From assembly GCA_003225005.1 (NCBI GenBank), contig QIAN01000139.1, positions 1 through 51,975 of the forward strand: a stretch of DNA of 51,975 nt, in the 5' to 3' direction. The DNA comes from Acidobacteriota bacterium (GTDB lineage: Bacteria > Acidobacteriota > Terriglobia > Terriglobales > Acidobacteriaceae). The position numbers and the translations under genes were made by a program. Below are positions 16,525-51,975 of this stretch, one piece after another. Positions within the stretch are counted from its first letter, which is position 1; every line of letters starts with the position of its first letter. A model generated the notes under the pieces. That model did no database searches and was not told where the DNA came from. It was given only the letters and a program-made list of their open reading frames with translations.

Positions 16525-16599
16525 GCCAGTCCTGTTCCTTAGCGATCCTGGCGAGAGTCTGCCTGGCCACAATCTGCCGATGATAAACTTTTGTATCCT

Positions 16600-22711: not shown

Positions 22712-23330
22712 GATGACCGCAGGCAGGGGGCGCCGCCACGGTTACAACGGCGAACAACTGGATGAATCCGGCGGTCCAGCATCCTCTACTCCGCGAGATA
22801 TTCTGTCAACTGGCTATCATGGGGTGGTAGAGCCTGCCCACATTGTATCCCCCTTAGCGAGATTGAAATGTGTGAGTGAGAAACGCCTTAGGGATCTGGC
22901 CGGACGGCTCCTCAAAAGCCGGGAGGCCAGCGACCGGGATTACAATCCGCAGCCGTGCCTCTTCCCTACTTCACTTTGGTGCGAGAAATGAAAGTGCCTA
23001 CAACCATCGCTTGCGCCTCGTCGCTCACGCTCGTCAGCATGGCATAAAGCCCGCCCCGCTGGTTCGTCTCAGATCACCGTCCCCACCGTGCACAAGTGGC
23101 TGCGCCGTTATCAGCAGCAGAGGTCGCGCGGCCTCATCGAGCTTTCCCGCGCTCCTCATCACCTGCCCGGGAAGGCTTCCCGCCGACATCGAATAGCAGG
23201 TCGTCGCTTTGCGCCAGTAGTTGTTCACTTTCGCGCTCAACTTTTTCTGGCTAGCTTCGCAACCCGACTGAGCAGGAGTGCCGGCGGAGAGCGGCACCGA
23301 AGCGCGCTTACTGTGCTAGGCTGATTGGCG
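22712..23330. other. Divergent intergenic region between sulfatase-fold paralogues 3 and 4
   Basis: No intact gene is visible in this 619-base gap. Its right half contains a broken transposase-like helix-turn-helix remnant, listed separately. The left half (22712-22970) shows nothing recognisable. The promoters of both flanking genes must lie here, but I found no convincing -35/-10 pair; TTATAAT inside the start region of paralogue 3 is the only striking AT-rich hexamer. Confidence 0.4.
22978..23177 (+). pseudogene. Transposase helix-turn-helix remnant (IS481-like)
   Basis: Two frames joined across small indels give about 60 residues that read as the N-terminus of a DDE transposase with a helix-turn-helix: NHRLRLVAHARQHGIKPA, then RWFVS, then ITVPTVHKWLRRYQQQ and GLIELSRAPHH. 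The 'V-P-T-V-H-K-W-L-R-R-Y' recognition helix followed by 'G-L-x-x-x-S-R-x-P-H' is typical of IS481-type transposases. The catalytic integrase core is missing and the frame is broken near 23055-23070. It is therefore an old insertion scar and not an active element. I saw no terminal inverted repeats around it. Confidence 0.55.
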
Positions 23331-26607: not shown

Positions 26608-27834
26608 CTACTTCTTTGCGATGGCCTTGTCCGAATTCTCGAAAATCTCGCTCAGTACACGGCCGCGCATCTGTGCCGGTTGCTCAATGCCGTAGATGTG
26701 CAGGATGGTAGGCGCAAGGTCATACACTGAGACCTCAAAACCCATCAAACGCAGGTCGTGCTTGATACCAGGACCCATGGCAAAGAACGATCCGGGTACG
26801 TCGTCACCGTCGGCGAAGTCATGTTTCGCCACCACGGGGGTAGTTTTCTCGTGGTCCATGTGCGCGTGCGGATCGGTCTCTTCGAACTCACGCAGCGGCT
26901 TGATACCATGATCGGAAACGATGATCACGTAGGTATTGTCGTCCACGTGCTTCAGGACCGCGCCCAGAACTTTGTCGAAGGCGATGTATTGATCCGGGAA
27001 GGCCTCCGTCCGCACAGCGTTGATCTTGGGATTGTAGCCGGCGTTATAAGGCGCAATAGGATACAGCCAATGCCCGGTCCGGTCCTCGCAAGACTGGCCC
27101 AACCAGGTGAATTCCGTGGGATGACGGCTCAGCAGGTAGTCGAAAAGCTGCGTCTGCTGCTCGCGGATGAGCTGGACTTTATTCAGCCAAGCATCGATGG
27201 CTTCGGTTTCGTGTCCTTTCAGATCCGCCGCCGAAGGCATGCGCTCGCAGTCAATGTAAAAGTCCCCCACATTCTTCAGCAACTCCGCCTTCATGGCAGG
27301 AGGATAAACCGCATCGCCACCCTGCACTTCTGATAGCTTGGGCGCGCAAAGCACGCCGTCTTCACAGTTTTTCCCGCGGGTCAGCATGCCGCTGATCATG
27401 TAGCCATTCACCGGCATAACCGGAAAGGTTGCGGGCACGTTGGCCATGCCCACAGTCACGCCGTTCTTAGACAGCATGGACCAGATAGGCTCTTCCTTCA
27501 ACATATTCGTGTTGGCCGTGATGCCGCCCACAATGAAGCCCGTAACCCCGTGTTCCTCAGGTTTCGTGCTGGTGAAGAAAGTGCTATACACGCGCGGGCA
27601 ATTGGGAGCGGAGACAGTCCGCAACTTGCCATACGCCCCCTTCCTGATCACGCTGGAGAGGTTGGGCATCTTGCCTTCTAACAGCAAGGGCCGAATGACG
27701 TCCAACTCCATGCCGTTTACGCCGATTACCACCACGTGGGGCTTGGGTTTGGCAGTGCTCTGGGCTTGTCCCAACAAAGCTACAGGGAGCGCAGCCAACA
27801 ACACCAGGACCATGGAGAACCGTTGAAAGACCAT
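26608..27834 (-). CDS. Type I phosphodiesterase/nucleotide pyrophosphatase-family protein, secreted
   Basis: With the ATG at 27834 (GAGG 9 bases upstream) the product is 408 residues; GTG at 27849 is an in-frame alternative. A signal peptide (about 1-25) precedes an alkaline-phosphatase-superfamily domain of the phosphodiesterase type: VVVIGVNGMELDVIRPLL with the metal Asp replaced by Asn in GVNG, the nucleophile region APNCPRVYSTFFTSTKPEEHGV, and the metal residues VIIVSDHGIKP and HMDHE. A substrate cannot be named. The Asn at the position where many members have Asp (GxDG) may weaken metal binding. It shares its fold with the four sulfatase-like paralogues nearby and is upstream of the TonB-C gene. 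Confidence 0.85.
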   Translation of the reverse strand: MVFQRFSMVLVLLAALPVALLGQAQSTAKPKPHVVVIGVNGMELDVIRPLLLEGKMPNLSSVIRKGAYGKLRTVSAPNCPRVYSTFFTSTKPEEHGVTGFIVGGITANTNMLKEEPIWSMLSKNGVTVGMANVPATFPVMPVNGYMISGMLTRGKNCEDGVLCAPKLSEVQGGDAVYPPAMKAELLKNVGDFYIDCERMPSAADLKGHETEAIDAWLNKVQLIREQQTQLFDYLLSRHPTEFTWLGQSCEDRTGHWLYPIAPYNAGYNPKINAVRTEAFPDQYIAFDKVLGAVLKHVDDNTYVIIVSDHGIKPLREFEETDPHAHMDHEKTTPVVAKHDFADGDDVPGSFFAMGPGIKHDLRLMGFEVSVYDLAPTILHIYGIEQPAQMRGRVLSEIFENSDKAIAKK

Positions 27835-28196
27835 CGAGACTGACCTCACTACTGGGATTATCAGGGGGTACCGTCGCTTTCCGCGTGTGTGGAAATTATA
27901 CGTCTATGAAGTCCTTTTATTCCAGTAACAGTGTCTGCAGGTAATGCCTCAGTAAAAGCCTTGGCGCTGCAGATTAACCCGTGCCTACGTAGGGTGACAG
28001 CCTGGTCGCTGTACCCGCTTCCGCGTATCGACATTCGCCTGCCGATATCCGACCATCATTTGCGGAGGCCCTCTGCGTGTAGGGGCCGGACATTACTCGA
28101 GACTTGAGGCGAAGTGTCGGCAGTTTTTGAGGTTGTGGAGGTTGGGAGGCCGAGGCCAAAGAATCTGAGATCGAACACAGTCAAAGGAGAGATTTT
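27835..28196. other. Intergenic region with no gene seen
   Basis: This 362-base gap lies between the divergent phosphodiesterase gene and a 50-residue membrane protein gene. No open frame with a recognisable product was seen on either strand. The left 100 bases are AT-richer than the surroundings and probably carry the promoters. The only clear signal is the AAGGAGA ribosome-binding site of the downstream gene at its right end. Confidence 0.4.
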
Positions 28197-37259: not shown

Positions 37260-40200
37260 TCACTGCTCTGGCGGCTTGTCCCGTAGCACGCGCTGGAGCA
37301 GGCTTTGCAGTTCCGTAGCCGACAAATTGTCGAGCTGGGTCGTCAGGGCTTCCGGGCTCTGACTGGCCACCACCGGTCGCGCGCTCCGTTGCAAAATGGG
37401 GGCGCGCGCTTTCACGCCCAGCGCCTGCGCTGTCTCTACCGCCGCTCCCAACGCCGCCAACGTGGGTTCTTCAAACAGACGGCGCACCGGCAACTCCACT
37501 TCGAACAGGCTACGGATGCGCGCCATCACCTGCAGCGCCAGCAGCGAGTGCCCGCCCAGCTCAAAAAAGTTCTGATCGATCCCCACCCGCTCCAGCTTGA
37601 GCAGTTCCTGCCAGATCGCGGCCAGCTTGCGCTCCACCTCGGTGCGCGGCGCCACCAGCCCGTCGTGGTCCGCAAGCGGCACCGCAGGCGCCCGCAGAAC
37701 CGCCTTGCGATCCAGCTTGCCGCTCGGTAGCAGCGGCCATTGTTCCAGACAGCTGTAACTGGCCGGAACCATGTGCTCGGGCAGCCGGGCGCGCAGAAAC
37801 CGCCGCAACTCTCCCGCCGACGGCGCCGTCCCGTTATCCACCGTGACATACGCCGCCAGCCGCTGCTGGTCCGCCGTCAACGCCACTACCGCTTCCCGCA
37901 CCCCAGGATGCGTGCCCAGCACCGCCTCAATCTCGCCCAACTCCAGCCGCATCCCCCGCAGCTTCACCTGGCTGTCCACTCGCCCCAGATATTCGATCTC
38001 GCCCGTGGCCTTGAAGCGCCCCACGTCCCCCGTGCGGTACAGTCGCGGGGACCGCTCCGGCGCCGCCGGGTTCTGAACGAAGCGCTCCGCCGTCAACTCC
38101 GGCCGCCGCCAGTACCCCCGCGCCAGATTGTCGCCGCCCACATAAATCTCTCCCCGCACCCCCGTCGCCACCGGGTCGCAATTTGCATCCAGAATGTAGA
38201 CCTGCGTGTTCGCGATCGGTTTGCCGATCGGAATCGAGTTAGCGCGGATGTCTTGCTCACGGACCTGATGCCAGGTGACATCGGCCGCCACCTCGGCCGA
38301 GCCGTACAGATTCAGCAGCGTGGCCGCGGGAAAGCCGGCACGGAAGCGTTCCACCAGATCTGTGGGCAGCATTTCGCCGCTGCACGACCACAACTTCAGC
38401 CCGGGCACGCGCTCGCCGAGTCGCGGAGCGTGCTCCAGCAGCATGCGCAACAGCGAGGGTACCAGCACGATGCGCGTCACGTGCTCCCGCGCCAACGTCT
38501 GAAGCAGCTCTTCCGGATCGTGCAGCGTCTCCTGCGGGATGATCACGCTCGGAACCCCGGCCAGCAGCGGCCCGAAAATTTCCCACACCGAATCGACAAA
38601 GCCGAGATTGGTCTTCTGGCAGCACACCTCGCCCGCTTGAAACGGATATGTCCGCCACATCCAGGCAAACCGGTTCAGGCACGCCCGATGCGTCCCCTGC
38701 ACCCCTTTCGGCGTTCCTGTCGACCCCGACGTGTACAGCACGTACGCGGTATCGTCCCTTGACGATTGCAAATCCAGGTTATCGGCGGATAGGGTTTCAA
38801 TGAGTTCCGCATCGCCGTCGAGTGCAACTACATTTCTCAGCGTGGGCGGAAGCCTGTGCCGGGTTGCGGTGTCCGTAACCACTCCCCAAACTTGCGAATC
38901 CTCAACCACAAATGAAAGCCACTGCGGCGGATAAGTCGAGTCCAGAGGCACATAAGCAGCACCGGCCTTGAGCACTCCGAGCAAAGCAATCACCATTTGC
39001 GGCGATCGCTCGAACGATACTCCTACCGAATCGCCGGGTCGAACGCCCCGCTTGATCAGGTGATGCGCCAGGCAATTGGCCCGCTTATTGATCTGCTTAT
39101 AGCTAAACTTCTGACCCTTGAACAACACCGCGGCCGAATCTGGAGTGCGGGCCGCCTGTCGTTTGAACCCAACCTCAATGGAGGGCGGTTGCCCGCCGTC
39201 CGCGACGGTATCGTTCAATTCGACAAGAAGGTGCTCCCGCTCTGTAGAGTCCATCAACGCAATTCGCGCCAGGGACCGGTCGGGATTCTCGATGGCTGCA
39301 TTTAGCAGGTTGCGGAGGTGCCCAATCATCTGGCGGATGGTGGCTGGTTCGAATAGATCCGTGTTGTACTCGAAGCGCCAATGCAGCGCTTCTTCCTCCT
39401 CCACCTCATACACCTCGGCCGTCAGATCAAACTTGGCGATTCCAGTCTCAAACGGAAAGTCTTCCATCTCCAGGCCCTGAATCTTGAAAACCTGTTTCGG
39501 CATGTTTTGGAAGATGAACATCACCTGGAACAGTGGCGTAATGTCGACCGAACGCTGTGGCACTAACTCTTCGACCAACTTCTCAAACGGAACATCCTGA
39601 TGGGCGTATGTTTCCAGGGCAAATCCGCGCACTTGGCGAACCAGTTGGCGGAAACTGATATTTTCGTCAAGATCAGCGCGGAAAACCAAAGTATTGACGA
39701 AGAAGCCGATCAGATTCTCCACCTCGATCAGGGAACGGCCGGCGGTCGGCGTACCAACGAGAATGCTGTTCTGCATCGTGTAGCGCCATAGCCATCCCTG
39801 AAACGCTGCCATGGACACCATGAACAGCGTGCTGCCCTCCTGGTTCGCAAAGGCTTTCAGCTTGGCGAACTTATCGCGATCGAATACTAAATGCTCGGCG
39901 GCACCGTGCCAGCTGGGGGTGGAAGGACGTCGGTGATCCGTCGGCAAATCGAGCACGGTGGGTGCGCCAGCAAGCTTTTCTTTCCAATATCGGACCTCAT
40001 CGGAGAGGACGCCGCCGCTGAGATATTCGCGCTGCCATTGCGCGTATTCGGCGTACTGCACAGGCAATCCCGGGAGCTCGGGAGACTGGCCGGTAGTAAA
40101 TGCCTCATAGCACTTAGTCAGTTCCCTGAACAGGATCGCAATCGACCACCCATCGGTGATGATGTGATGCATGACCAGAATCAACAGGTGCTGATCCGGT

Positions 40201-40580
40201 TTGAGGCGTACTAGCAGCGTCCTGAATAGCGGGCCTTGGGTCAGTTCGAATGGCTTCTTTCCCTCTTCGCTGGCAATCGCCAGGGCAGCCTGTTCGTGAC
40301 CCTGCTCCGGCGTGCCGGACAGGTCCACCAGGGGAATCTCCATCTCCATCTCAGGCAAAACAATCTGCCTGGCCTGACCGTCGACGGAATCGAAAATGGT
40401 ACGCAGCGATTCGTGGCGCCGCACCACTTCCTGAACAGCACGGATCAGAGCTTGCAGGTCCAGGGGGCCAATGATCCGGAAGGCGCGGGCCGCATTGTAG
40501 GCCGCCGTCCCAGGCTCAAGCTGGTCTAGGAACCAAAGTCTCTGTTGGGCAAACGAAGTTGGGTAGGCCGTGTCGGTCAT
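37260..40580 (-). CDS. Single-module NRPS, C-A-T, predicted to activate beta-alanine
   Basis: From the ATG at 40580 the protein is about 1106 residues; an in-frame TTG at 40643 would add 21. A condensation domain (about 5-440) has HHIITDG. The adenylation domain (about 460-970) has YVLYTSGSTGTPKGV, NLYGSAE, YRTGDVGRF and GRVDSQVKLRGMRLELGEIE, with the Lys of LPSGKLDRK. A carrier domain (about 995-1060) has NFFELGGHSLLALQ. There is no thioesterase or epimerase, and the C-terminal helix-rich tail (LSATELQSLLQRVLRDKPPE) is probably a docking element. The pocket residues I extract by hand are V-D-W-V-S-S-L-A-D-K, lacking the usual Asp235 and matching 9 of 10 with the beta-alanine code I recall from BlmIV. 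GC content jumps inside the A domain near 38750. Confidence 0.88.
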   Translation of the reverse strand: MTDTAYPTSFAQQRLWFLDQLEPGTAAYNAARAFRIIGPLDLQALIRAVQEVVRRHESLRTIFDSVDGQARQIVLPEMEMEIPLVDLSGTPEQGHEQAALAIASEEGKKPFELTQGPLFRTLLVRLKPDQHLLILVMHHIITDGWSIAILFRELTKCYEAFTTGQSPELPGLPVQYAEYAQWQREYLSGGVLSDEVRYWKEKLAGAPTVLDLPTDHRRPSTPSWHGAAEHLVFDRDKFAKLKAFANQEGSTLFMVSMAAFQGWLWRYTMQNSILVGTPTAGRSLIEVENLIGFFVNTLVFRADLDENISFRQLVRQVRGFALETYAHQDVPFEKLVEELVPQRSVDITPLFQVMFIFQNMPKQVFKIQGLEMEDFPFETGIAKFDLTAEVYEVEEEEALHWRFEYNTDLFEPATIRQMIGHLRNLLNAAIENPDRSLARIALMDSTEREHLLVELNDTVADGGQPPSIEVGFKRQAARTPDSAAVLFKGQKFSYKQINKRANCLAHHLIKRGVRPGDSVGVSFERSPQMVIALLGVLKAGAAYVPLDSTYPPQWLSFVVEDSQVWGVVTDTATRHRLPPTLRNVVALDGDAELIETLSADNLDLQSSRDDTAYVLYTSGSTGTPKGVQGTHRACLNRFAWMWRTYPFQAGEVCCQKTNLGFVDSVWEIFGPLLAGVPSVIIPQETLHDPEELLQTLAREHVTRIVLVPSLLRMLLEHAPRLGERVPGLKLWSCSGEMLPTDLVERFRAGFPAATLLNLYGSAEVAADVTWHQVREQDIRANSIPIGKPIANTQVYILDANCDPVATGVRGEIYVGGDNLARGYWRRPELTAERFVQNPAAPERSPRLYRTGDVGRFKATGEIEYLGRVDSQVKLRGMRLELGEIEAVLGTHPGVREAVVALTADQQRLAAYVTVDNGTAPSAGELRRFLRARLPEHMVPASYSCLEQWPLLPSGKLDRKAVLRAPAVPLADHDGLVAPRTEVERKLAAIWQELLKLERVGIDQNFFELGGHSLLALQVMARIRSLFEVELPVRRLFEEPTLAALGAAVETAQALGVKARAPILQRSARPVVASQSPEALTTQLDNLSATELQSLLQRVLRDKPPEQ

Positions 40581-40719
40581 CCCGATGTTCTGACCTGGCG
40601 CAACATGGCCATCTTGGGGGCAGTGGTCAGGACCGCCAATCAAGTGTATAGTGTAACATGATTACTGACTTAACTGTATTGTCCCCCAGGGCAGAGTGCG
40701 CGAATGTGGTGAGGCGCCA
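40581..40719. promoter_or_regulatory. Divergent NRPS promoter region
   Basis: The gap between the two divergent NRPS genes has an AT-rich core at about 40640-40675 amid GC-rich sequence. It contains ACTATA/TATACA and TTAAGT on the minus strand, plausible -10 and -35 elements for the C-A-T gene. An imperfect dyad (AGTGTAACATGATTACT, 40654-40670) could be an operator. No known regulator site was recognised. Confidence 0.35.
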
Positions 40720-43700
40720 GTGTCGAAGGCGTACGCGTCGATGTCGTGTCGGACCAATTTTGAGCTAGCCCAACAGAAGAAGCTGCTTGTTGATGCGCTT
40801 TTACAAGCCGGGGGGACGGTTATCTATCCGGCTTCCCTGACCCAACAGCGATTGTGGTTCCTCGATCAACTCCAGGGCCCTACCGCCGCCTATAACGTGC
40901 ATGTGGGCTTGTGGCTGTACGGACCACTTAATCTGGCGGCGCTCCAATCCAGTCTTCAAGAAGTAGTGAACCGCCATGACAGTGTGCGCACCACCTTAAG
41001 ACTGGAAAATGGCGAAATTGCCCAGGTCGTTGCGCAAAGCGTTGCTGTTACGCTCCCGCTGACAGATTTCGCAGCTCTCCCGGACCCCTACCCCCCAGCT
41101 TACGAGCTTGCGAAAGAAGAAGTGGCAAGGCCGTTCGACCTGAGCGCAGGGCCGTTATTTCGCTTCCGCGTCTTTCGCATTAACGCCGAAGAGCATGTTC
41201 TTCACTGCGTCATGCACCACACCATTACCGATGCGTGGTCGATGCAGGTATTCACAAAAGAACTGGCGCTTCTCTACGAGAAGCTTGCGAACGGAAGCCG
41301 TGCCATTTTGCCCGAACTCCCCATTCAATATGGAGACTATTCGGAATGGCAGCACGCCTCGTTTGGAACCGAAGAAGTTCAGAGGCAACTGGCCTATTGG
41401 AAAGAGAAGCTTCAGCATGCGGCGCCAGTCTTGGAATTGCCGCTGGACAGGCCACGCCCTGCCGAACAAACGTTTGCAGGGGCAAATCACACGGTTACTC
41501 TGCCCGCCGAAATGGTCGCGCGCGTCAAGTCGTTGGCGACTCGGCTACAAGCTACTCCCTTCATGTTGTTTCTGGCTGCGTTTAAGGTTTTGCTTTATCG
41601 CTACTGCGGTCAACCTGACGTCATCGTCGGGGTTCCGGTGGCAGGGCGCAGCCGGGTGGAAACCGAGGGACTAATCGGATTCTTTGTAGACACCCTGGCG
41701 TTGCGCGATGATCTTGGTGGCAATCCCAGATTTATGGATTTGCTGGCGCAGGTCCGTGAAACGATTTTGGCTGCGTTCGCACACGCAGATATCCCATTTG
41801 AAAAAGTAGTCGAGGTGCTGCAGCCCGAACGCAACCTTAGCTATAACCCGATCTTCCAAGTCATGTTCTCTGCTTTTAAATCGCCGGTAGAGTCGAGCGA
41901 TTTTGGCAATTTGAAGGTTTACCCCTACATCGTCAATCCCAATACTTCGATCTTTGACCTCAGCATGACTCTGATCGAAGGGCTGGATGGAAGGTGGTGG
42001 ACACAGGTTGCCTACAACACCGACCTATTCGATTCCTCTACGATCGGACGAGTGCAGCAACACTTCCGCAACTTACTGGAAGGCATCGTTGCTGACCCGG
42101 AGCAATGCATTGCTGATCTGCCACTCCTCAGTGTTGCTGAAGAACGACAGTTGCTAGTTGATTTCAACAATACTGACGCTGACTTTCGTCGTGACTTGTG
42201 CCTGCACCGCTTTTTCGAGCAGCAGGTCGCCCGCACTCCGAACGCCGTCGCCTTAATCTGCGGCGGTCAACGAATCTCTTACGACCAACTCAACCGGCGT
42301 GCTGACGGACTTGCCGCTCACTTGCGCCAAGAAGGCATAGGCCCCGACGTTCTGGTAGGTCTCTGTGCCGATCGTTCCATCAATTTGCTGGTGGGAATAT
42401 TAGGAATTCTGAAAGCCGGCGGGGCCTACGTTCCACTTGACCCGACTTATCCCAAGGAGCGACTCGCTTGTATCCTTGAAGACTGTGGTTTGAAGCTCCT
42501 CCTTACTCAAAACAAGTTCAGTCGGAAACTGGCAGTACGTGGCGTCAAATGGATAGACCTTGATCGCGATTGGCCGACGAAAGGCGAGCAGGCACGTGAG
42601 ATAGATACGACGCCGGAAAATCTTGCGTACGTTCTTTTCACATCCGGTTCCACGGGTCGAGCGAAGGGTGTTGCTCTGGAGCATCGGAACGCGGCGAATT
42701 TCGTTCAATGGGCTCAAACAGCGTTCACGCCCGAGGAGCTGGCCGGAACGCTTTTCGCGACTTCGGCATGCTTTGACCTATCGATCTTTGAAATGTTTGT
42801 GCCTTGGAGCGTGGGAGGCGCCGTCATTCTGGCACCGAATGCGATTTCTCTGCCCGAGTTGCCGGCATTCAACGAAGTGACACTCATCAACACGGTGCCA
42901 TCAGTCATGGCGGAACTCATGCGTGCCGGCGCCGTGCCGGACTCAGTAACCACCGTGAACCTGGCCGGGGAAACTCTGCCGAGTTCGCTGGTCAATGATC
43001 TCTATAAGCACACGCAAGTACAAAATGTTTATAACCTCTATGGTCCTACCGAAGCCGCCACTTACTCAACCTACGCGCGATTGAGCCGTGATGCGGATGT
43101 CACGATTGGCAAACCGATCGCGAACACGCAAGCTTATATTCTCGACCGTGACTCTAAGTTGGTGCCTCGGGGCGGACAGGGTGAGCTGTTCTTGGGAGGA
43201 GACGGCTTGGCTCGCGGATACTTCGGCCGTCCCGATCTGACGGCCGAACGCTTTGTGCGCAACCCGTTTAGTGCGGAAACCGGAGTAAAACTCTACCGGA
43301 CCGGCGATCTATGCCGTCACCGCGCGGACGGCAGTATCGAATATCTGAGCCGCTTGGACCATCAGGTCAAGCTACGCGGATTCCGCATTGAACTCGGCGA
43401 AGTTGAAGCGGTACTCGGAAAGCACAGCAGCGTGCGACAGGCCGTCGCTGTCGTTTGCGAGGGCGAAGGCGGGAAACGACTGGTGGCCTATGTAGCAGCC
43501 AAGCCGGGCCGCGCGATCTCGGCCTCCGAGTTGCGTCAGCATTTGGAGAAGAGCTTGCCAGTTTACATGATTCCCCAGGCCTTTGTCGTGGTCGATGAAT
43601 TTCCTCGCACGTTGAACGGAAAGGTGGACCGTTGCGCGTTGCCCTCACCCGAGTCCCCGGACAGAACGAAAGCGGTAGGCCCGCGCGATGAACTGGAGAC

Positions 43701-44751
43701 AACTCTGGTGCGGATCTGGGAAACCGTTCTACCGGTGCGGCCTATTGGAGTTACGGACAATCTTTTCGATCTCGGTGGCCATTCGCTCCTGGCAGCAAGG
43801 CTTATCGCACAAATGCAGAGCGTGACCGGCAAAAGGATTCCGCTGTCGGCAATCTTCCGCGCGCCGACGATTGAGAAACTTGCCCGTCTGCTCGCAAGCG
43901 ACTCCGTGTCGAACCCGGATCCCGTTCTCATGCAGCTCCGTCAAGGCCACGATGGCGTTCCGTTTTTTGCCGTCGCGGCTCCTGGAGTCGATTCGCTCGG
44001 TTTCGCGCTATTGGCACGTCACCTGGGCGATGAGCAATCCGTATATAAGCTGCAAAGTCCCAGTCCTCGAATTTTGGGCCCGTTCGAAAAGGATGAGTTA
44101 CGCGCCCTGGCCCGAGAATACGTGACCGCGATGCGCACCGTACAACCACACGGTCCGTTTTGCCTCGGCGGCATGTGCGAAGGGGTTTTGATCGCGCAGC
44201 AAATGATTCTCGAGCTGGAATCCCAGGGGGAAGAGGTTGCGCTGTTCGCAATCTTTGATACCTGGGTCCTGGAGAACTCTCAAATCCGCCCGTTATGGAG
44301 GATCGATTACTACCTGCAACGAGTTCGCGAGTTTCCGGAACTGCCTCTCAAGAAGCAACTGGCGATCCTGCGCCACACGGTCAAACGCTGGGCGAGACGA
44401 AATCGATCCACCCGAAATGCCTGGGCTCAAGTGTACTGGCCGGGTGACGACTTCCAGGCGCCGCGTTTTCGTGCGCCCGTGCTGCTCTTCAAAAGACCGC
44501 GACAGCCGTTTTACTACGTTCGCGATCCAAAAATGGGTTGGGGGGCTCGCTCGACTGGCGAAGTAGAGATCCGCGAAGTCAACTGCGGACATTTCGAGAT
44601 GCTGCGAGAACCCCAGGTTCGAGTGCTCGGTGAACGACTTGTCGAGCGTCTGCGCGCGATCAACGAGAGGACTCCGAAGGCAGACCGGCCCTTCCCCGTG
44701 TTGCCCGCGGGAAGCGGAATCGAATCTGGATTCAGACAGCCGACACAGTGA
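40720..44751 (+). CDS. NRPS termination module C-A-T-TE with Cys-type thioesterase
   Basis: The product is about 1343 residues from GTG 40720 (GAGG 5 bases upstream; GTG 40696 and ATG 40741 are alternatives). Domains: a short helical N-terminus (FELAQQKKLLVDALLQAGG), condensation (HHTITDAWS, with Ala for the usual Gly), adenylation (YVLFTSGSTGRAKGV, NLYGPTEAATYSTY, YRTGDLCRH), carrier (NLFDLGGHSLLAARL) and a C-terminal alpha/beta-hydrolase thioesterase (about 1090-1310). The pocket code read by hand is D-L-F-N-N-A-L-T-Y-K, which I associate with alanine or glycine. The TE nucleophile motif is GGMCEG: Cys (codon 44176-44178) instead of Ser. The TGA overlaps the GTG of the ABC permease, so the final NRPS and exporter are translationally coupled. 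Confidence 0.92.
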   Translation: MSKAYASMSCRTNFELAQQKKLLVDALLQAGGTVIYPASLTQQRLWFLDQLQGPTAAYNVHVGLWLYGPLNLAALQSSLQEVVNRHDSVRTTLRLENGEIAQVVAQSVAVTLPLTDFAALPDPYPPAYELAKEEVARPFDLSAGPLFRFRVFRINAEEHVLHCVMHHTITDAWSMQVFTKELALLYEKLANGSRAILPELPIQYGDYSEWQHASFGTEEVQRQLAYWKEKLQHAAPVLELPLDRPRPAEQTFAGANHTVTLPAEMVARVKSLATRLQATPFMLFLAAFKVLLYRYCGQPDVIVGVPVAGRSRVETEGLIGFFVDTLALRDDLGGNPRFMDLLAQVRETILAAFAHADIPFEKVVEVLQPERNLSYNPIFQVMFSAFKSPVESSDFGNLKVYPYIVNPNTSIFDLSMTLIEGLDGRWWTQVAYNTDLFDSSTIGRVQQHFRNLLEGIVADPEQCIADLPLLSVAEERQLLVDFNNTDADFRRDLCLHRFFEQQVARTPNAVALICGGQRISYDQLNRRADGLAAHLRQEGIGPDVLVGLCADRSINLLVGILGILKAGGAYVPLDPTYPKERLACILEDCGLKLLLTQNKFSRKLAVRGVKWIDLDRDWPTKGEQAREIDTTPENLAYVLFTSGSTGRAKGVALEHRNAANFVQWAQTAFTPEELAGTLFATSACFDLSIFEMFVPWSVGGAVILAPNAISLPELPAFNEVTLINTVPSVMAELMRAGAVPDSVTTVNLAGETLPSSLVNDLYKHTQVQNVYNLYGPTEAATYSTYARLSRDADVTIGKPIANTQAYILDRDSKLVPRGGQGELFLGGDGLARGYFGRPDLTAERFVRNPFSAETGVKLYRTGDLCRHRADGSIEYLSRLDHQVKLRGFRIELGEVEAVLGKHSSVRQAVAVVCEGEGGKRLVAYVAAKPGRAISASELRQHLEKSLPVYMIPQAFVVVDEFPRTLNGKVDRCALPSPESPDRTKAVGPRDELETTLVRIWETVLPVRPIGVTDNLFDLGGHSLLAARLIAQMQSVTGKRIPLSAIFRAPTIEKLARLLASDSVSNPDPVLMQLRQGHDGVPFFAVAAPGVDSLGFALLARHLGDEQSVYKLQSPSPRILGPFEKDELRALAREYVTAMRTVQPHGPFCLGGMCEGVLIAQQMILELESQGEEVALFAIFDTWVLENSQIRPLWRIDYYLQRVREFPELPLKKQLAILRHTVKRWARRNRSTRNAWAQVYWPGDDFQAPRFRAPVLLFKRPRQPFYYVRDPKMGWGARSTGEVEIREVNCGHFEMLREPQVRVLGERLVERLRAINERTPKADRPFPVLPAGSGIESGFRQPTQ

Positions 44752-45704
44752 ACGAAGACAATTGGCCAGGGATGACATCAGAGAATGCGGCGGCTCCCGT
44801 CGTAGCTCCGCCTGGGGACGCCGGCGCCGAAAACCTCTCATGGACGCCGGCAGGTGATCAGTCTAAGGCCACCGCGCGTCCAATTAAGGTGATTGGACCG
44901 CCTGCCTTTTCTTTGCGCACCGTCTTCACTGGAATTCGCACGCTCATTCAATACTCCGACCTGCTCTATACCTTGAGCGTCTTCCGTCTCCACGTGCGTT
45001 ACAAGCAGTCTTTTCTGGGCTGGGCCTGGGCGGTCGTTCAGCCTTTAGCCCTGATGGGCATCTACACTTTTATTTTTTCCCATGTCACGACGGTCGCGAC
45101 TGGCGGAGCCCCTTACCCCATTTTTGTGTTCTCTGCGCTCTTACCCTGGATTTTCTTTTCCAGTTCCATCACGAACTCGATTCAGGGGCTGGTCACCTAC
45201 CCGAATCTGCTGACTAAAATGTACTTCCCGCGCGAGATCATTCCTCTATCGTATCTGGCCGCCGGCTTGGCTGATTTCCTGATCGCCTCGCTCATTCTTG
45301 CAGGGCTCATGGTCCACTATGGCGTGGCGCTGACTTGGAATGTACTCTATGCAATACCGATTTTTCTCCTGATCGCTGGGTTTGCATCCGCCATCGCCCT
45401 GTTCTTCTCGGCGGTTCACGTCCGTTTTCGTGATGTCGGGCTCGCCATGCCTTTTGTGATGCAGATCTGGGTGTTCGCCGCGCCGGTGGTCTATTCGGTC
45501 CAGTCGGTTCCAGTGCGTTTGCGCAGGATTTATTTATTAGATCCAGTAGCTGGCCTTATTGAAAATTTTCGCCGGGCTGTGATCTATGGAACCGCCCCCG
45601 ATCCGGCCGCGCTGGCCATCTCTGCCGCCATGGCGATCGTTTCGCTCGCGCTCGCGTACGCCTATTTCAAGTCCTCGGAAGGCGCCATGGCTGACCTCGT
45701 CTGA
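44748..45704 (+). CDS. ABC-2 permease of the polysaccharide/O-antigen export type
   Basis: The 318-residue membrane protein begins at a GTG that overlaps the NRPS stop (GTGA). A roughly 60-residue cytoplasmic N-terminus precedes five to six hydrophobic helices. Family marks are RYKQSFLGWAWAVVQPLALMGIYTFIF and the later VHVRFRDVGLAMPF and YSVQSVP, typical of Wzm/TagG-like ABC-2 permeases (a description, not a reading of the substrate). These proteins export lipid-linked polysaccharides, teichoic acids or glycoconjugates. The ATPase gene follows 21 bases later. Coupling to an NRPS-TE gene is unusual. Confidence 0.9.
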   Translation: MNEDNWPGMTSENAAAPVVAPPGDAGAENLSWTPAGDQSKATARPIKVIGPPAFSLRTVFTGIRTLIQYSDLLYTLSVFRLHVRYKQSFLGWAWAVVQPLALMGIYTFIFSHVTTVATGGAPYPIFVFSALLPWIFFSSSITNSIQGLVTYPNLLTKMYFPREIIPLSYLAAGLADFLIASLILAGLMVHYGVALTWNVLYAIPIFLLIAGFASAIALFFSAVHVRFRDVGLAMPFVMQIWVFAAPVVYSVQSVPVRLRRIYLLDPVAGLIENFRRAVIYGTAPDPAALAISAAMAIVSLALAYAYFKSSEGAMADLV

Positions 45705-45725: not shown

Positions 45726-46889
45726 ATGATTGACCTCAAACTTGATCACGTCTCAAAGAAATACAACATTCCTGCCAGCAGTAACTCGCCCAAGCGCTGG
45801 TACAAGCGCGGGTTTGCCAGGCGATCGTCGGAAATGTGGGCTCTGCGCGACATCAGTTTTGAGGTGAAGGAGGGGGGAGCTCTGGGCATCGTGGGTCACA
45901 ACGGCGCCGGCAAAACAACCTTGCTCAAGCTCCTCTCCAGCATTACCGCTCCCACGCGCGGCCAAATCACCATCCGCGGAAGGCTTGCCGCCCTGGTCGA
46001 AGTCAGTTCCGGATTCCATCCCGAGCTTACCGGCAGAGAAAACATATTCCTGCACGGGGCGATGCTGGGTATGCGCCGGGCGGAGATCACCCGCAAGATG
46101 AGCAGCATTGTCGAGTTCTCAGGCGTGGGACAGTACATCGAGGTGCCGGTCAAACGCTACTCCTCCGGCATGTACGTTCGCCTGGGCTTCTCCATTGCGG
46201 CGCATCTCGATCCTGACATTCTGCTGCTTGACGAAGTCCTGGCCGTAGGCGATGTCGCGTTCCAGGCCAGATGCCTCGACCGAATCGGCGAATTGCGGAA
46301 GGCTGGACGAACCATCGTCTTCGTTTCCCACGATCTTGCGGCCGTCTATCACCTCTGCGACCGGGCAATTCTGCTGGCTCGCGGCCAGATATTGTCCGAT
46401 GGCACGCCCCGCGCAGTGATTGATCAGTACCAGCGTATGGCTTTTGCTGGTCAGGGAACTTCGCTGGACCAACTCGATCCCCAGAAATTGGCAGAATGTA
46501 CCAGCATCTCGTTTTCTTCGCCTGAATCTTCCGATAGCGTTCGCACCGGCTATCCCATGATCGCGCGCCTGGGCTATCGAGCTGCCCAGAGCATTCCCGG
46601 CGCCGTCTTTCGCATTTCTCTCTACTGGCCCAGCGGCTACCTGTGTGCCCAGTTCACCAATGAGGCATCCGGCCCGCGGCTTAGTCTGGAGCCCGGCACA
46701 GGAACCATCCAGTTTCAGTGCCCAGTTCTGCCGGTTGTCCCTGGCCTCTATCGCATCGACTTGAGCATTGAGTCAAATGGTTGCGAGATTGACCTCAGGC
46801 AACGTTGTGCCTCGCTCTGTGTCGATTCCGGGAGACCGGCCCAGGGAGATTTTTACATTGAGAATCAATGGACCGTCGTGCGCAGCTGA
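45726..46889 (+). CDS. ABC transporter ATPase of the Wzt type with C-terminal extension
   Basis: The 387-residue protein has a nucleotide-binding domain (about 1-240): Walker A GHNGAGKTT (58-66), the polysaccharide-transporter signature KRYSSGMYVRLGFSIAAHLD, Walker B ILLLDEVLAVGD and the H-loop FVSHD. A C-terminal region of about 120 residues (about 265-387: YRAAQSIPGAVFRISLYWPS, GLYRIDLSIESNGCEIDLRQ) looks like the beta-sandwich of Wzt, which recognises the glycan end of exported polymers. AGGAAACAGC precedes the ATG. It forms the exporter with the upstream permease. The substrate may be a glycosylated or lipidated peptide made by the NRPSs. Its stop is 115 bases from the convergent NRPS end. 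Confidence 0.9.
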   Translation: MIDLKLDHVSKKYNIPASSNSPKRWYKRGFARRSSEMWALRDISFEVKEGGALGIVGHNGAGKTTLLKLLSSITAPTRGQITIRGRLAALVEVSSGFHPELTGRENIFLHGAMLGMRRAEITRKMSSIVEFSGVGQYIEVPVKRYSSGMYVRLGFSIAAHLDPDILLLDEVLAVGDVAFQARCLDRIGELRKAGRTIVFVSHDLAAVYHLCDRAILLARGQILSDGTPRAVIDQYQRMAFAGQGTSLDQLDPQKLAECTSISFSSPESSDSVRTGYPMIARLGYRAAQSIPGAVFRISLYWPSGYLCAQFTNEASGPRLSLEPGTGTIQFQCPVLPVVPGLYRIDLSIESNGCEIDLRQRCASLCVDSGRPAQGDFYIENQWTVVRS

Positions 46890-47003: not shown

Positions 47004-50000
47004 TCAGCGTTGTGTTTTTCGTCTAACGGCGCTTTCGATAAACTTCCTGGCTTCTTCTACCGAAAGCTTTCTTAACTCCATGAGGAGCGCCTCTTTTGTC
47101 GCATCCGCGGTGTCGGCATGATGGTGACGTTGGAAGACGGGGGTACGCGCCTTCACTCCCGTGGCTTGCGCCTTCTCCAACTCCAGTCCCAATGCCGCAA
47201 TGGTCGGCGCCTCGAAAACACTGCGCACCTGCAATTCCACTTCAAACGTATGACGGATCCGCGCCATCATCTGCAGCGCCAGCAGCGAATGCCCGCCTAA
47301 CTCGAAAAAGTTCTGCTCGATTCCCACTTGCTCAACTTGCAACAGCTCCTGCCAGATGTCCGCCAGCTTCGCTTCTATCTCGTTCCGCGGAGCAATGAGC
47401 TCGGCTTCTTCCCCCAACGCAGTGGCCGACAACGCCGCCAGCGCCCCGCGGTCTACCTTGCCAGTAGGCAGGAGCGGCATTCTTTCTATCCGCCAGTAGC
47501 CGGCTGGCACCATGTACGGCGGCAGCTTTGCCCCTAGATGGCGGCGGAGTTCGCTGGCCGACGGCGCCGCCTTCCCATCATTCACCACCACGTATGCGGA
47601 TAACTTCTGCTGTTCGCCCTCGCCCGTGACGTGGACTACCGCTTCCTGCAGGGTCGAGTGCGAAGCCAGCACGGACTCGATCTCTCCCAACTCAATGCGG
47701 AAACCGCGCAGCTTGACCTGGTTGTCCACCCGGCCCAGGTACTCAATCTCGCCCTGGGAACGAAATCGGCCTAAGTCGCCAGTGCGATACAACTTGGGAG
47801 ACTGGTTCGTAACCACGCGGTTTGGAACGAAGCGCTCGGCCGTCAACTCCGGACGGTGTAGATAGCCGCGCGCAAGCCCGTCGCCACCGATGTAGATTTC
47901 TCCGGCGACATTTACCGGCACAGGGTTTTGATTGGAATCCAATATGTAGATCGAGGTATTCGCGAGGGGACGGCCGATCGGGATCGAGGCCTCCTCTCGG
48001 CCAGTCACGCGATACACGGTAGACCAGACCGTAGTCTCGGTCGGGCCATAGACATTCCATACGGATTTGCCGCGAGCGATCAGTTCGCGGGCTAGTTTCG
48101 CCGGTAGCGCTTCCGCACCACAAAGAATCTTCAGATCTGGCGAACCTTGCCACCCGGCTGCGAGAAGCAGCCGCCACGTGGCCGGGGTGGCCTGCATAAA
48201 CGTAACCCCACTCTTACTCATTAGATCCCTGAGCCGGTTGCCGTCGACCGCATCTTCCAGACTCCCAATCACCATTCGCGCTCCGGAGATCAAAGGGAGA
48301 TACATCTCAGGCGTGGCCATGTCGAATGAGATTATCGCCAGCGCGAGCAGCACGTCGTCACGATTCATGCCGGGTTCGCGCTGCATGGAACGCAGCAGGT
48401 TGACTACGCTCCCGTGCTCAATCAGCACTCCCTTCGGTCTCCCTGTTGAGCCGGAGGTGTACATCACGTAGGCCAGCGTCTGCGGACTGAGCCTTTGATC
48501 GGGGTTCTGTTTACTCTCTTGGGCGATGACGTTCCAATCCGTATCCAGAAGAACCGTGTCGGCTCCAAAAAGACCGCGCTGCATCTTCTGTTCTGTGAGC
48601 ACCATGCGCGGCTTGACGTCGGCCAGCATGAAGCTCAGCCGGTCGTCGGGTAGCCTCGGATCCAGCGGCACATAGCCTCCCCCGGCTTTGAGAATGCCCA
48701 GCAGAGCGACCATCATCCCGGGTCCACGCTCGAGGCACATACAGACCGGGACCTCGGGTCCTACTCCTCGCTTCAGCAGGTACCCGGCCAGCTGATTGGC
48801 GCGCTGGTTCAGTTCGCGATAGGTCAATTCCTGGTTTCCAGCAACTACGGCTACGGCGTCAGGCGATTGCTCAACTTGCAATTCGAACAGTTCGTGAATG
48901 CACGGCTGGGGGTGCGCTCGGGAATAGTCCGTCGTCGTCCGATTCCACTCGACCAAGACCTCCTCCCGCTCCTGCTCACTCAGGATCGGCAGTTGAGCTA
49001 AGGGTAGGTCAGGGTTCTCCAACGCGGCTTGGATCAGCTTTTCGAAGTTTCCGAGCATCCGCTCGATCGTGGATGGCCCGAAAAGATCGGTGTTGTATTC
49101 GAACTGGCAGTGGAGCTCAGTGTCCTCCCACAGTTCGGCAGACAGGTCGAACTTGGCGATGCCGGTCTCAAAATTCATCTGCTCGATGCTGAGTCCGGAA
49201 ATCTCGAAGACCTGCTTGGGAATGTTCTGGAAGATGAACATCACCTGGAACAGTGGAGGCGTGTCGAGTGAACGCTGCGGGACCAATTCCTCAACCAGTT
49301 TCTCGAAGGGCAGGTCCTGATGCATGTACGCTTCCAGGGCAAACGAGCGCACCCGCCCAATCAGATCCCGAAAGCTCAGGTTCTCCGTGAAATCCGCGCG
49401 GAAGACCAGGGTGTTCACGAACAACCCGACCATGTCTTCAAGTTCGACTTCGTTGCGCGCCCCAATCGGGGTCCCGACCAGAATGCTTTGCTGATAGGTG
49501 TAGCGCCAGAGTAAGGCCTGAAATGCGGCCATCGACACCATGAACAGCGTGGCCCTCTCGTTCTGCGCCATCAATTTCAGTCTGGACAAAGTGGCGACAT
49601 CCAGCGTGATTACCTTTCTGGCGCCGTTCCAGGTTTGGGCAGCCGGACGAGGGTGGTCGGTGGCAAGCTCAAGCAGGGTTTGCGCTCCGGCCAGCGTATT
49701 CTTCCAGTGTTCGACTTCCTTGCTGAGCGCCTCTCCGCTCATGTACTCCCGCTGCCACTGCGCGTAGTCCGTATACTCAATGGGAAGCTTGGGAAGCTCT
49801 GGATCTTTATTCTCGAGGAACGCCGCATAGCACTTCGTCACATCACGGAAAAGACAGGAAATCGACCACCCGTCACTGATGATATGGTGCATGACGATCA
49901 GCAGGATGCAGGTTTCCGGTCCCAGGCGAACCAGCAGGGTACGGAAAAGTGGCCCTTCACGCAAGTCAAACGGTTTCTTGCCTTCCTCGCTCGCAAGGCG

Positions 50001-51975
50001 AAGCGCCTCGGATTCGCGCTCTCCCTCCGGAACCGCGGTCAGATCGATGATGGGCACCTTAACATCTACGTTGGATAACACCACCTGTCTGGTCTCGCCC
50101 TCGACCGAGTCAAACACCGTACGCAGCGAGGCGTGCCGTTCTACGACGGCACGGAAAGCCCGGGTCAGGACATCGATATTCAGCTGACCGCTGATCCGGA
50201 AGACGGAAGGCATGTTGTAAGTGCCGGTTCCGGGCTCGAACTGGTCGAGAAACCATAATCTCTCCTGCGCGAAAGAAGCTGGGAACGCCTCCCGACCCGC
50301 GTCCGCACTGACACCATGATGGCGACGTTGGAAGATGCGAGTGCGCGCCTTCAGTCCCTTCCCCCGTATCTTCTCCACCTCGAGCGCCAGTGCCGCAATG
50401 GTCGGCGCCTCGAACACAGTCCGCACCGGCAATTCCACTCCAAACGCCCCCCGGATCCGCGCCGTCACCTGCAGCGCCAGCAGCGAATGCCCGCCCAACT
50501 CGAAAAAGTTATGATTGACACCAATCGGCCGCGCACCTAGGACAGACTCCCAGATCTGGACCAATCGGGACTCGATGGCATCTTTTGGCGCGACAAACTC
50601 TCCCTTGGCCGCGAAGTCTGCCTGATCAGGCGCTGGAAGCACCCGTCGGTTGACCTTGCCGCTCGACGTCAGCGGCATCTCCTTGAGCGTGACGAAAGCC
50701 GACGGCACCATGTATTCCGGCAACTTCTCTTCTAGAAAATCGCGCAACCCGTTGATCGGGGGGATCGATTCTTGCGCCGATACAAAATATGCCACCAGAC
50801 GTTTGTCTCCCGGCGTGTCCTCCCGAACAATTACCGAGGCTTGGCGAACCCCAGGGCACTTCGTCAGGATTGATTCAATCTCACCTAGCTCGATACGAAA
50901 GCCTCGCAGCTTAACTTGGTGATCGATCCGACCACGGTACTCAATGTTTCCGTCGGGAAGAAAGCGGGCCAGGTCACCGGTCTTGTAAAGGCGAGACCCA
51001 GCGTCCGAGCTGAACGGGTTCGGAATAAACTTTTCGGCCGTCAGTTCTGGGCAGTTCAGATATCCTCGGGCTAGGCCGATGCCGCCAATGTGCAACTCCC
51101 CTGCTACTCCGATGGGGACTGGCTGAAGGCTCGGCTCGAGAATGTAGATTTGGGTATTGGCAATCGGCTTGCCGATGGGCACGATTTGCTGCTTGCCACG
51201 TGGTTGGCAAGCCCAGTAAGTCACGTCCACGGCCGCCTCGGTAGGGCCATAGAGATTGTGCAGTTCCGCCCGTAACCTTTCAAAAAAACGCTGTTGTAAC
51301 GCGAAGGGCAAGGCCTCACCACTTACGAAGACTTGTCTGAGCGCACGGCAACCCTCGAGATCTTCAACCTCCAAGAAAATGCTAAGCATGGAAGGAACGA
51401 AGTGAAGGGTCGTGATCTTCTGATCGGCAATCAGGTTTACGAGGTACGCGGGATCCTTGTGTCCACCCGGACGCGCCAGAACTAACGTAGCGCCCGTCAT
51501 GAGTGGCCAAAAAAACTCCCATACAGAAACGTCGAAACTGTATGGTGTCTTCTGCAGAACGCGATCATCCGCCGTCAGACGATACATGTCTTGCATCCAC
51601 AACAGCCGGTTTACTATGCCCTCGTGGACGTTGGGTACACCTTTGGGTTTACCCGTGGAACCCGAGGTGTAGATCACGTATGCTAGATTTTTCCCGCTAA
51701 CAGTGGCAGGCAGATTCTCGGTGCTCTCCTGGTGCAGACTTTCCCCGTCACGATCGAGCAGGATGACATGTCGCGCCCCCTGCGGTATGCGGTTCTGGAG
51801 GCGTTGTTGGGTGAGCAGAATGGAAGACTTTGCATCCTGCTGCATAGTCTCCAAGCGTTCCCGAGGATACTCAGGATCCAACGGAACATAGGCGCCACCG
51901 GCTTTGATAATACCCAGGAGAGCAACGACCATTTCTACGGAGCGCTCGGCGCAAACACTAACCAGAACGTCTGGC
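47004..51975 (-). CDS. Multimodular NRPS, partial: A(Ser)-T-C-A-T, 5' end outside window
   Basis: The open frame runs past the right edge; 1656 residues are visible. The first A domain lacks its N-terminus (starts near PDVLVSVCAERSVE) and has YVIYTSGSTGKPKGV and YKTGDLARF; its pocket code by hand is D-V-W-H-F-S-L-V-D-K, the canonical serine code. A carrier (NFFELGGHSLLALQVTARI) and a condensation domain (HHIISDGWS) follow. The second A domain (YVMYTSGSTGRPKGV, YGPTETTVWS, YRTGDLGRF) has D-M-P-Q-L-G-V-V-W-K, partly like glycine codes. A second carrier (FFELGGHSLLALQMMARI) ends the chain with a docking-like tail (LLMELRKLSVEEARKFIESA). No epimerase or TE. Start and any earlier modules lie outside. 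Confidence 0.93.
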   Translation of the reverse strand, partial: PDVLVSVCAERSVEMVVALLGIIKAGGAYVPLDPEYPRERLETMQQDAKSSILLTQQRLQNRIPQGARHVILLDRDGESLHQESTENLPATVSGKNLAYVIYTSGSTGKPKGVPNVHEGIVNRLLWMQDMYRLTADDRVLQKTPYSFDVSVWEFFWPLMTGATLVLARPGGHKDPAYLVNLIADQKITTLHFVPSMLSIFLEVEDLEGCRALRQVFVSGEALPFALQQRFFERLRAELHNLYGPTEAAVDVTYWACQPRGKQQIVPIGKPIANTQIYILEPSLQPVPIGVAGELHIGGIGLARGYLNCPELTAEKFIPNPFSSDAGSRLYKTGDLARFLPDGNIEYRGRIDHQVKLRGFRIELGEIESILTKCPGVRQASVIVREDTPGDKRLVAYFVSAQESIPPINGLRDFLEEKLPEYMVPSAFVTLKEMPLTSSGKVNRRVLPAPDQADFAAKGEFVAPKDAIESRLVQIWESVLGARPIGVNHNFFELGGHSLLALQVTARIRGAFGVELPVRTVFEAPTIAALALEVEKIRGKGLKARTRIFQRRHHGVSADAGREAFPASFAQERLWFLDQFEPGTGTYNMPSVFRISGQLNIDVLTRAFRAVVERHASLRTVFDSVEGETRQVVLSNVDVKVPIIDLTAVPEGERESEALRLASEEGKKPFDLREGPLFRTLLVRLGPETCILLIVMHHIISDGWSISCLFRDVTKCYAAFLENKDPELPKLPIEYTDYAQWQREYMSGEALSKEVEHWKNTLAGAQTLLELATDHPRPAAQTWNGARKVITLDVATLSRLKLMAQNERATLFMVSMAAFQALLWRYTYQQSILVGTPIGARNEVELEDMVGLFVNTLVFRADFTENLSFRDLIGRVRSFALEAYMHQDLPFEKLVEELVPQRSLDTPPLFQVMFIFQNIPKQVFEISGLSIEQMNFETGIAKFDLSAELWEDTELHCQFEYNTDLFGPSTIERMLGNFEKLIQAALENPDLPLAQLPILSEQEREEVLVEWNRTTTDYSRAHPQPCIHELFELQVEQSPDAVAVVAGNQELTYRELNQRANQLAGYLLKRGVGPEVPVCMCLERGPGMMVALLGILKAGGGYVPLDPRLPDDRLSFMLADVKPRMVLTEQKMQRGLFGADTVLLDTDWNVIAQESKQNPDQRLSPQTLAYVMYTSGSTGRPKGVLIEHGSVVNLLRSMQREPGMNRDDVLLALAIISFDMATPEMYLPLISGARMVIGSLEDAVDGNRLRDLMSKSGVTFMQATPATWRLLLAAGWQGSPDLKILCGAEALPAKLARELIARGKSVWNVYGPTETTVWSTVYRVTGREEASIPIGRPLANTSIYILDSNQNPVPVNVAGEIYIGGDGLARGYLHRPELTAERFVPNRVVTNQSPKLYRTGDLGRFRSQGEIEYLGRVDNQVKLRGFRIELGEIESVLASHSTLQEAVVHVTGEGEQQKLSAYVVVNDGKAAPSASELRRHLGAKLPPYMVPAGYWRIERMPLLPTGKVDRGALAALSATALGEEAELIAPRNEIEAKLADIWQELLQVEQVGIEQNFFELGGHSLLALQMMARIRHTFEVELQVRSVFEAPTIAALGLELEKAQATGVKARTPVFQRHHHADTADATKEALLMELRKLSVEEARKFIESAVRRKTQR

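Follow-up and report, generated by a model that had tools for sequence, protein, structure and literature searches.

How does a nonribosomal peptide synthetase (NRPS) release its product when its terminal thioesterase (TE) carries a cysteine in place of the usual catalytic serine, and where does that product go? The question is raised by a terminal NRPS gene in an acidobacterial contig (QIAN01000139.1), of which the whole stretch analysed, 51,975 nucleotides, is called the window below. The original prediction, made from these letters alone, had taken the TE to be active, with candidate Asp and His residues for a catalytic triad, and had supposed an uncommon mode of release, such as the strained ring formed by the obafluorin synthetase or transfer to an amine or thiol. 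The TE gene and its catalytic residues are as follows.

40696-44751, plus strand: terminal NRPS gene, C-A-T-TE, 1351 aa (Pfam domain map; GTG start assumed), A-domain code DLFNNALTYK
43882-44748, plus strand: TE domain, the stretch used as search query (PF00975, PDB matches, AF2 model)
44176-44178, plus strand: nucleophile Cys1161, codon TGC, in LGGMCEG (ORF translation, alignment)
44257-44259, plus strand: triad Asp1188, codon GAT, in FDTW, 27 residues after the Cys (+27), i.e. position I (invariant in alignments A1 and A3)
44590-44592, plus strand: triad His1299, codon CAT, in CGHFEML (invariant in A1 and A3)

The TE domain is fused to the terminal module of the NRPS and matches PF00975 with 51.9 bits against a cut-off of 26.4 in the Pfam scan; six further PF00975 places lie in the same genome. 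The closest folds to its AF2 model (mean pLDDT 78.2, lid region weak) are TE domains, with PDB 7crn at the top and Pks13, 4zxh and EntF among the top rows, at TM-scores of ~0.5-0.6. In a phmmer search against the PDB, Cys1161, whose TGC codon is in frame, is aligned with the elbow Ser of 7crn and of EntF (3tej), which bears out the claim that Cys sits at the position of the catalytic Ser. The alignment with TE domains that had been proposed as a check likewise has Cys1161 in the nucleophile column, and the Asp and His named beforehand proved to be the aligned, invariant triad residues (in 21 of 21 relatives, and in A3). Read from sequence, the triad Cys1161-Asp1188-His1299 is intact, with the classical (position I) layout of a type I NRPS TE.

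The 21 relatives are loci from a pattern scan of 84,980 species genomes, all of them named as Acidobacteria, Acidobacteriota, Terriglobia or Candidatus Sulfotelmatobacter; at least nine sit on contigs shared with the 20-genome same-genus set that serves as a control below. Cys, Asp and His are present in every one of the 21, and the triad is invariant in the 22-row alignment A3, from which L076 was left out and to which L142 was added. The TE of L076 (L076:1868-2549, on the contig of L017/L054) is spread over two frames in that assembly and was read as two pieces. Because all 21 relatives keep the triad, Cys1161 is not a sequencing error, and this explanation, which had been raised for positions 44176-44178, was rejected. 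A search of the genus recovered 11 TEs of the same clade, of which 10 were aligned as A1, all with Cys, Asp and His, the eleventh being split between frames and outside A1. The clade is narrow: it is present in 10 of 37 same-genus genomes, and among 297 genomes sampled across the phylum only the window's own, G140 and G238 passed an E-value of 1e-40. Plasmid records gave 140 TE matches, all below 60% identity and the best rows at ~30%, with no close relative there.

Cys nucleophiles are described as less common among TEs in general (PMC11298585, PMC6668435). We surveyed the bacterial class to which the window belongs and found 71 PF00975 places in 121 genomes; the nucleophile column was scored for 62, the remaining nine having been missed by the profile used for scoring. 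The 61 scored places without the window comprise 37 with Ser, 23 with Cys and 1 with Arg. For this class, 'uncommon' was therefore too strong, and the idea that Cys TEs are rare is rejected. Asp and His also occupy the triad columns at 12 of the 23 other Cys places, with Asp, His or both lacking at the other 11.

Known Cys-type TEs differ in the position of the triad Asp. In the TEs of ObiF1, which forms a beta-lactone, and SulM, which forms a beta-lactam, it is displaced to position II (PMC6668435, PMC11298585); in ObiF1 the residue at +27 is Gly and the Asp sits one strand further on (PMC6668435). AB3403, a C-A-T-TE protein with a Cys nucleophile, has its Asp at position I and is described as uncharacterized (PMC11298585), while BulbE-TE, with Cys961 and Asp988 (+27), forms the indolyl macrolactam of bulbiferamide, and its Cys-to-Ser mutant loses the macrolactam and shows increased hydrolysis (PMC11536411). 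The window TE has the Cys and the position I Asp (+27) of AB3403/BulbE-like TEs; of the marks of the ObiF/SulM type it has the Cys nucleophile and lacks the position II Asp. The invariant Asp215 of alignment A1 lies, by sequence, 22 residues before the His, against 30 in the residue numbers of ObiF and SulM. Since the Asp at +27 is invariant, the window TE therefore has the AB3403/BulbE layout and departs from that of the strained-ring TEs. The comparison with obafluorin falls at this point, ObiF1 having Gly where the window has Asp (PMC6668435). An active acyl-Cys that favours an amine, as also supposed, may be a fair reading on the precedent of BulbE-TE (PMC11536411).

The A domains of the terminal modules bear on the same comparison. 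Their codes were extracted by aligning the domains with a GrsA ruler, and the residues assigned to them are presumptive. DLFNNALTYK, for which a literature search returned nothing, occurs in the terminal modules of the window, L054/L076, L069, L071 and L073, and we take it to be an Ala code; DVWHFSLVDK, in L045, L048/L065, L052/L070 and L072, is presumably a Ser code, and DFWNIGMVHK, in L049/L067, presumably a Thr code, while we regard the terminal codes of L063, L064 and L068 as Gly-like. In L038 and L062 the terminal module is C-T-TE and lacks an A domain, which suggests loading in trans. Because the terminal codes, as read, include those for Ala and Gly, residues that cannot form a beta-lactone, this ring cannot be the common product of the TE family. 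With codes for Ala, Gly, Ser and Thr, and with modules that lack an A domain altogether, release is on this reading independent of the last side chain: a single chemistry that serves such different final residues cannot depend on a beta-hydroxyl. Ala, Gly, Ser and Thr codes thus count against the obafluorin comparison as well, and together with the position I Asp they disfavour beta-lactone release.

A beta-hydroxyl residue is nonetheless possible in the lines of L038, L041 and L043, where a separate A domain, Leu-like by its code, is present along with a nearby P450. L038 and L043 also have a PLP decarboxylase, whose best NCBIfam matches (under cut-off) are diaminobutyrate and aspartate decarboxylase, and by sequence the P450 and decarboxylase might provide beta-hydroxy-leucine together with either a diamine or beta-alanine in these lines. 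No homologue of the L038-type P450 or of the PLP decarboxylase was found within the window, which holds two further NRPS genes.

47004-51974, minus strand: further NRPS, A-T-C-A-T, running off the contig end, codes DVWHFSLVDK (Ser?) and DMPQLGVVWK (Gly?)
37260-40643, minus strand: further NRPS, C-A-T, code VDWVSSLADK (beta-Ala?)

As the first of these is cut by the contig end, the peptide can be read only in part. Elsewhere in the window are four sulfatase-TPR fusion genes (16591-18612, 18619-20703, 20738-22711 and 23325-25298) and a phosphodiesterase-like gene (26608-27849). The most informative neighbour of the TE gene, absent from the original prediction, is the adjoining exporter.

44748-45704, plus strand: Wzm-like ABC-2 permease, GTG start (PF01061; six PDB matches)
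45726-46889, plus strand: Wzt-like ATPase with C-terminal carbohydrate-binding domain (PF00005; PDB, Wzt_C and fold matches)

The stop of the NRPS gene and the start of the Wzm gene overlap by 4 nt (44748-44751), and the Wzt gene follows. All six PDB matches of the permease are permease partners of Wzt/TarH-type ATPases, and the best PDB matches of the ATPase are Wzt-type and TagH/TarH ATPases. All 8 family members examined gave a Wzt_C match, with 3.5e-9 as the best E-value; that of the window's own protein (E 3.3e-4, 21.1 bits) lies below the Pfam cut-off of 30.4. A model of the Wzt C-terminal domain (mean pLDDT 86.5) retrieved 17 Wzt chains, either sugar-binding domains or whole transporters, ahead of all else in a fold search; a sequence profile of the clade's Wzt_C region found no PDB sequence. 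The window thus holds both parts of a Wzm/Wzt exporter, an ABC-2 permease and an ATPase with a Wzt sugar-binding domain, with NCBIfam matches for Wzm, Wzt and Wzx all below curated cut-offs (equivalog cut-offs not reached). No glycosyltransferase was found among the 16 window proteins scanned.

Exporters of two kinds follow the TE gene in the relatives. Wzm and Wzt are found after it in 7 of the 21 (L056, L058, L059, L060, L061, L062 and L066) and a Wzx flippase in 10: immediately 3' of the TE gene in seven (L065, L067, L068, L070, L071, L075 and L076), separated from it by a phosphopantetheinyl transferase gene in L064 and L074, and ~3 kb further along in L072. A sulfotransferase homologue is present at nine of the ten Wzx loci and an ATP-grasp gene with a small phosphatase at seven; in G023 (L047/L048), the Wzx locus inspected most closely, the surrounding genes include ATP sulfurylase/APS kinase, GT2 and polysaccharide deacetylase genes. 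In L049:2-1792 an ATP-grasp and a low-molecular-weight phosphatase domain occupy a single frame. Downstream of the TE we found no exporter homologue in L063 and L073 (~6 and ~10 kb, some ORFs scanned) or in L144, and in L057 and L069 the downstream sequence is too short to show one. At L069:3-4175 the reading frame continues past the Cys TE into a C domain and part of an A domain, so either this TE has an internal position or the assembly of the contig is wrong. G238, from another family of the phylum, has three TEs of the clade, all with Cys: two belong to a tandem pair of C-A-T-TE-sized genes, each with its own Cys TE (L151:9977-18337), that is followed by Wzm and Wzt (Wzt_C 2.8e-12), and downstream of the third come a NodZ-like gene, its match below the Pfam cut-off, and genes for a GT2 and a methyltransferase.

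On a first tree, in which L001_C actually has Arg, L125_C duplicates L103_Sb and REF duplicates the window, the Wzm-paired TEs including the window formed a group with 100/100 support nested within the Wzx-paired TEs, together with L057, whose downstream sequence is unreadable. Our first reading, a single swap from Wzx to Wzm, was weakened when G238, which also has Wzm/Wzt, was placed outside that group: on the tree with G238 added (11 hand-chosen survey rows) the Wzm-paired TEs fall into two parts of the tree, separated by Wzx-paired ones, and the TE stays Cys throughout. By sequence, Wzx and Wzm/Wzt have replaced each other at the same slot after the TE gene. These are unrelated families, alike mainly in transporting lipid-linked glycans, and their exchange is the best clue to the fate of the TE product.

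How far the link extends was judged from other TEs. Of the 37 genomes of the same genus, 20 were hand-picked, 10 containing the clade and 10 containing other TEs. In this set all 11 clade TEs have an exporter less than 3 kb away, at distances of just 0-311 nt, vs 1 of 35 other TEs; one place among the 35 (G026:C28) was entered by hand. Exporters were sought with PF01943 and the window's Wzm, a pair of queries that would pass over other kinds, and at a TE place close to the end of its contig a neighbouring exporter would go unseen. The lone exporter-paired TE among these 35, L142, is a Cys TE of another lineage. Fisher's p for this comparison, 9e-10, overstates the case because clade members are not independent. 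Across the class, with exporters chosen by eye on contigs bearing a TE place, one lies within 3 kb at 2 of 23 Cys vs 0 of 36 Ser places, and the contig of the 37th Ser place (G014) has no PF01943 or Wzm match. The relatives of G238 gave 14 TE matches, 3 with Cys (all in G238) and 11 with Ser; of the latter only one, in G204, has an exporter within 3 kb, by eye, namely a 29% identical ABC-2 match 2.1 kb off. That an exporter should accompany Cys TEs in general is not supported, given 2 of 23 other Cys places; with 11 of 11 in the clade set against 2 of 23 other Cys and 0 of 36 Ser places, the link belongs to the clade plus a few others. At L143:4611-10027, in another family of the class, an A-T-TE gene encodes a Cys TE, and genes for an ABC-2 permease and an ABC ATPase come next, possibly an independent case of such pairing.

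What the sequence establishes is a conserved triad, an NRPS gene that overlaps the exporter genes, and a switch between exporter types inside the clade, and the adjacency of the exporter hints at a peptide displayed on, or together with, a surface sugar chain. We propose that the carrier protein would hand the peptide over to Cys1161, giving a thioester, the putative acyl-Cys, and that an amine or another acceptor, and not the side chain of the last residue, would then release it, both the release and the identity of the acceptor being conjectural. The product would then exit by the lipid-linked glycan export route, here Wzm/Wzt, and the most likely reason for such a route would be that the acceptor is a lipid-linked glycoconjugate or that the peptide joins one. 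This sequence of acyl-Cys, acceptor release and entry of the product into lipid-linked glycan export is a tentative proposal, with a chance somewhat short of even. That the Cys TE itself hands a peptide or aminoacyl chain to a lipid-linked glycan, e.g. to an amino sugar, for surface display, with Wzx and Wzm/Wzt interchangeable, we regard as rather unlikely.

About as probable as the proposed route is ordinary release by a Cys-type TE, giving a macrolactam or a linear peptide, with the exporter just carrying the finished (lipo)peptide out. BulbE-TE, which has the same Cys-to-Asp spacing, does yield a macrolactam (PMC11536411), and AB3403, a C-A-T-TE protein with Cys and a position I Asp (PMC11298585), is the third row of the PDB profile search, with a match spanning only about the first half of the TE. 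Ordinary release leaves it unexplained why one slot should be shared by exporters of two unrelated families that each typically serve lipid-linked glycans, and why the ABC partner should retain a sugar-binding fold, as its model predicts; moreover, MacB pumps are said to be the commonest transporter in the clusters of Ca. Angelobacter, another soil acidobacterial genus (PMC9723581). We place the glycan-route reading first because it accounts for the exporter exchange, a macrolactam or free peptide being about equally likely.

Release as a beta-lactone or other strained ring, as in obafluorin or sulfazecin, would agree with the Cys nucleophile, with the candidate source of beta-hydroxy-leucine (Leu-like A domain and P450) in L038, L041 and L043, and with the C-T-TE terminal modules of L038 and L062; set against an Asp at position I in 22 of 22 rows of A3, Ala and Gly among the terminal codes of the family, and a window devoid of an L038-type P450 homologue, it is highly improbable. 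Nor is the TE likely to be degenerate, or merely an editor of misloaded carrier proteins: 11 of the 23 other Cys places of the class, it is true, are without Asp, His or both, but the triad is kept throughout the window's clade and the domain is part of the NRPS chain, at the end of its terminal module, and we consider this account very unlikely.

If the coupling is true, nonribosomal peptide synthesis would be tied to surface-glycan export, and the reason for the Cys nucleophile would be a thioester acyl-enzyme that can be opened by a poor or bulky acceptor. A literature search over titles and abstract openings, of partial coverage, returned no description of an NRPS paired with a Wzx flippase, an acidobacterial O-antigen exporter or Wzm/Wzt. 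Even if the coupling is false, the triad layout sets the window TE apart from the beta-lactone type and averts the mining of this locus as a beta-lactone cluster.

Among known systems, AB3403 of Acinetobacter baumannii (PDB 4zxh) resembles the window TE in its C-A-T-TE architecture, its Cys and its position I Asp (PMC11298585). BulbE-TE is alike in its Cys nucleophile and its Asp at +27; its release is aminolytic and its product a macrolactam, and of these two TEs such release is demonstrated for BulbE alone (PMC11536411). The ObiF1 and SulM TEs share the Cys, but their Asp is at position II and their terminal residue bears a beta nucleophile (PMC6668435, PMC11298585). The Wzm/Wzt O-antigen exporter resembles the window pair in its permease, its ATPase and the carbohydrate-binding fold of Wzt; unlike that exporter, the window pair forms one overlapping unit with an NRPS thioesterase gene.
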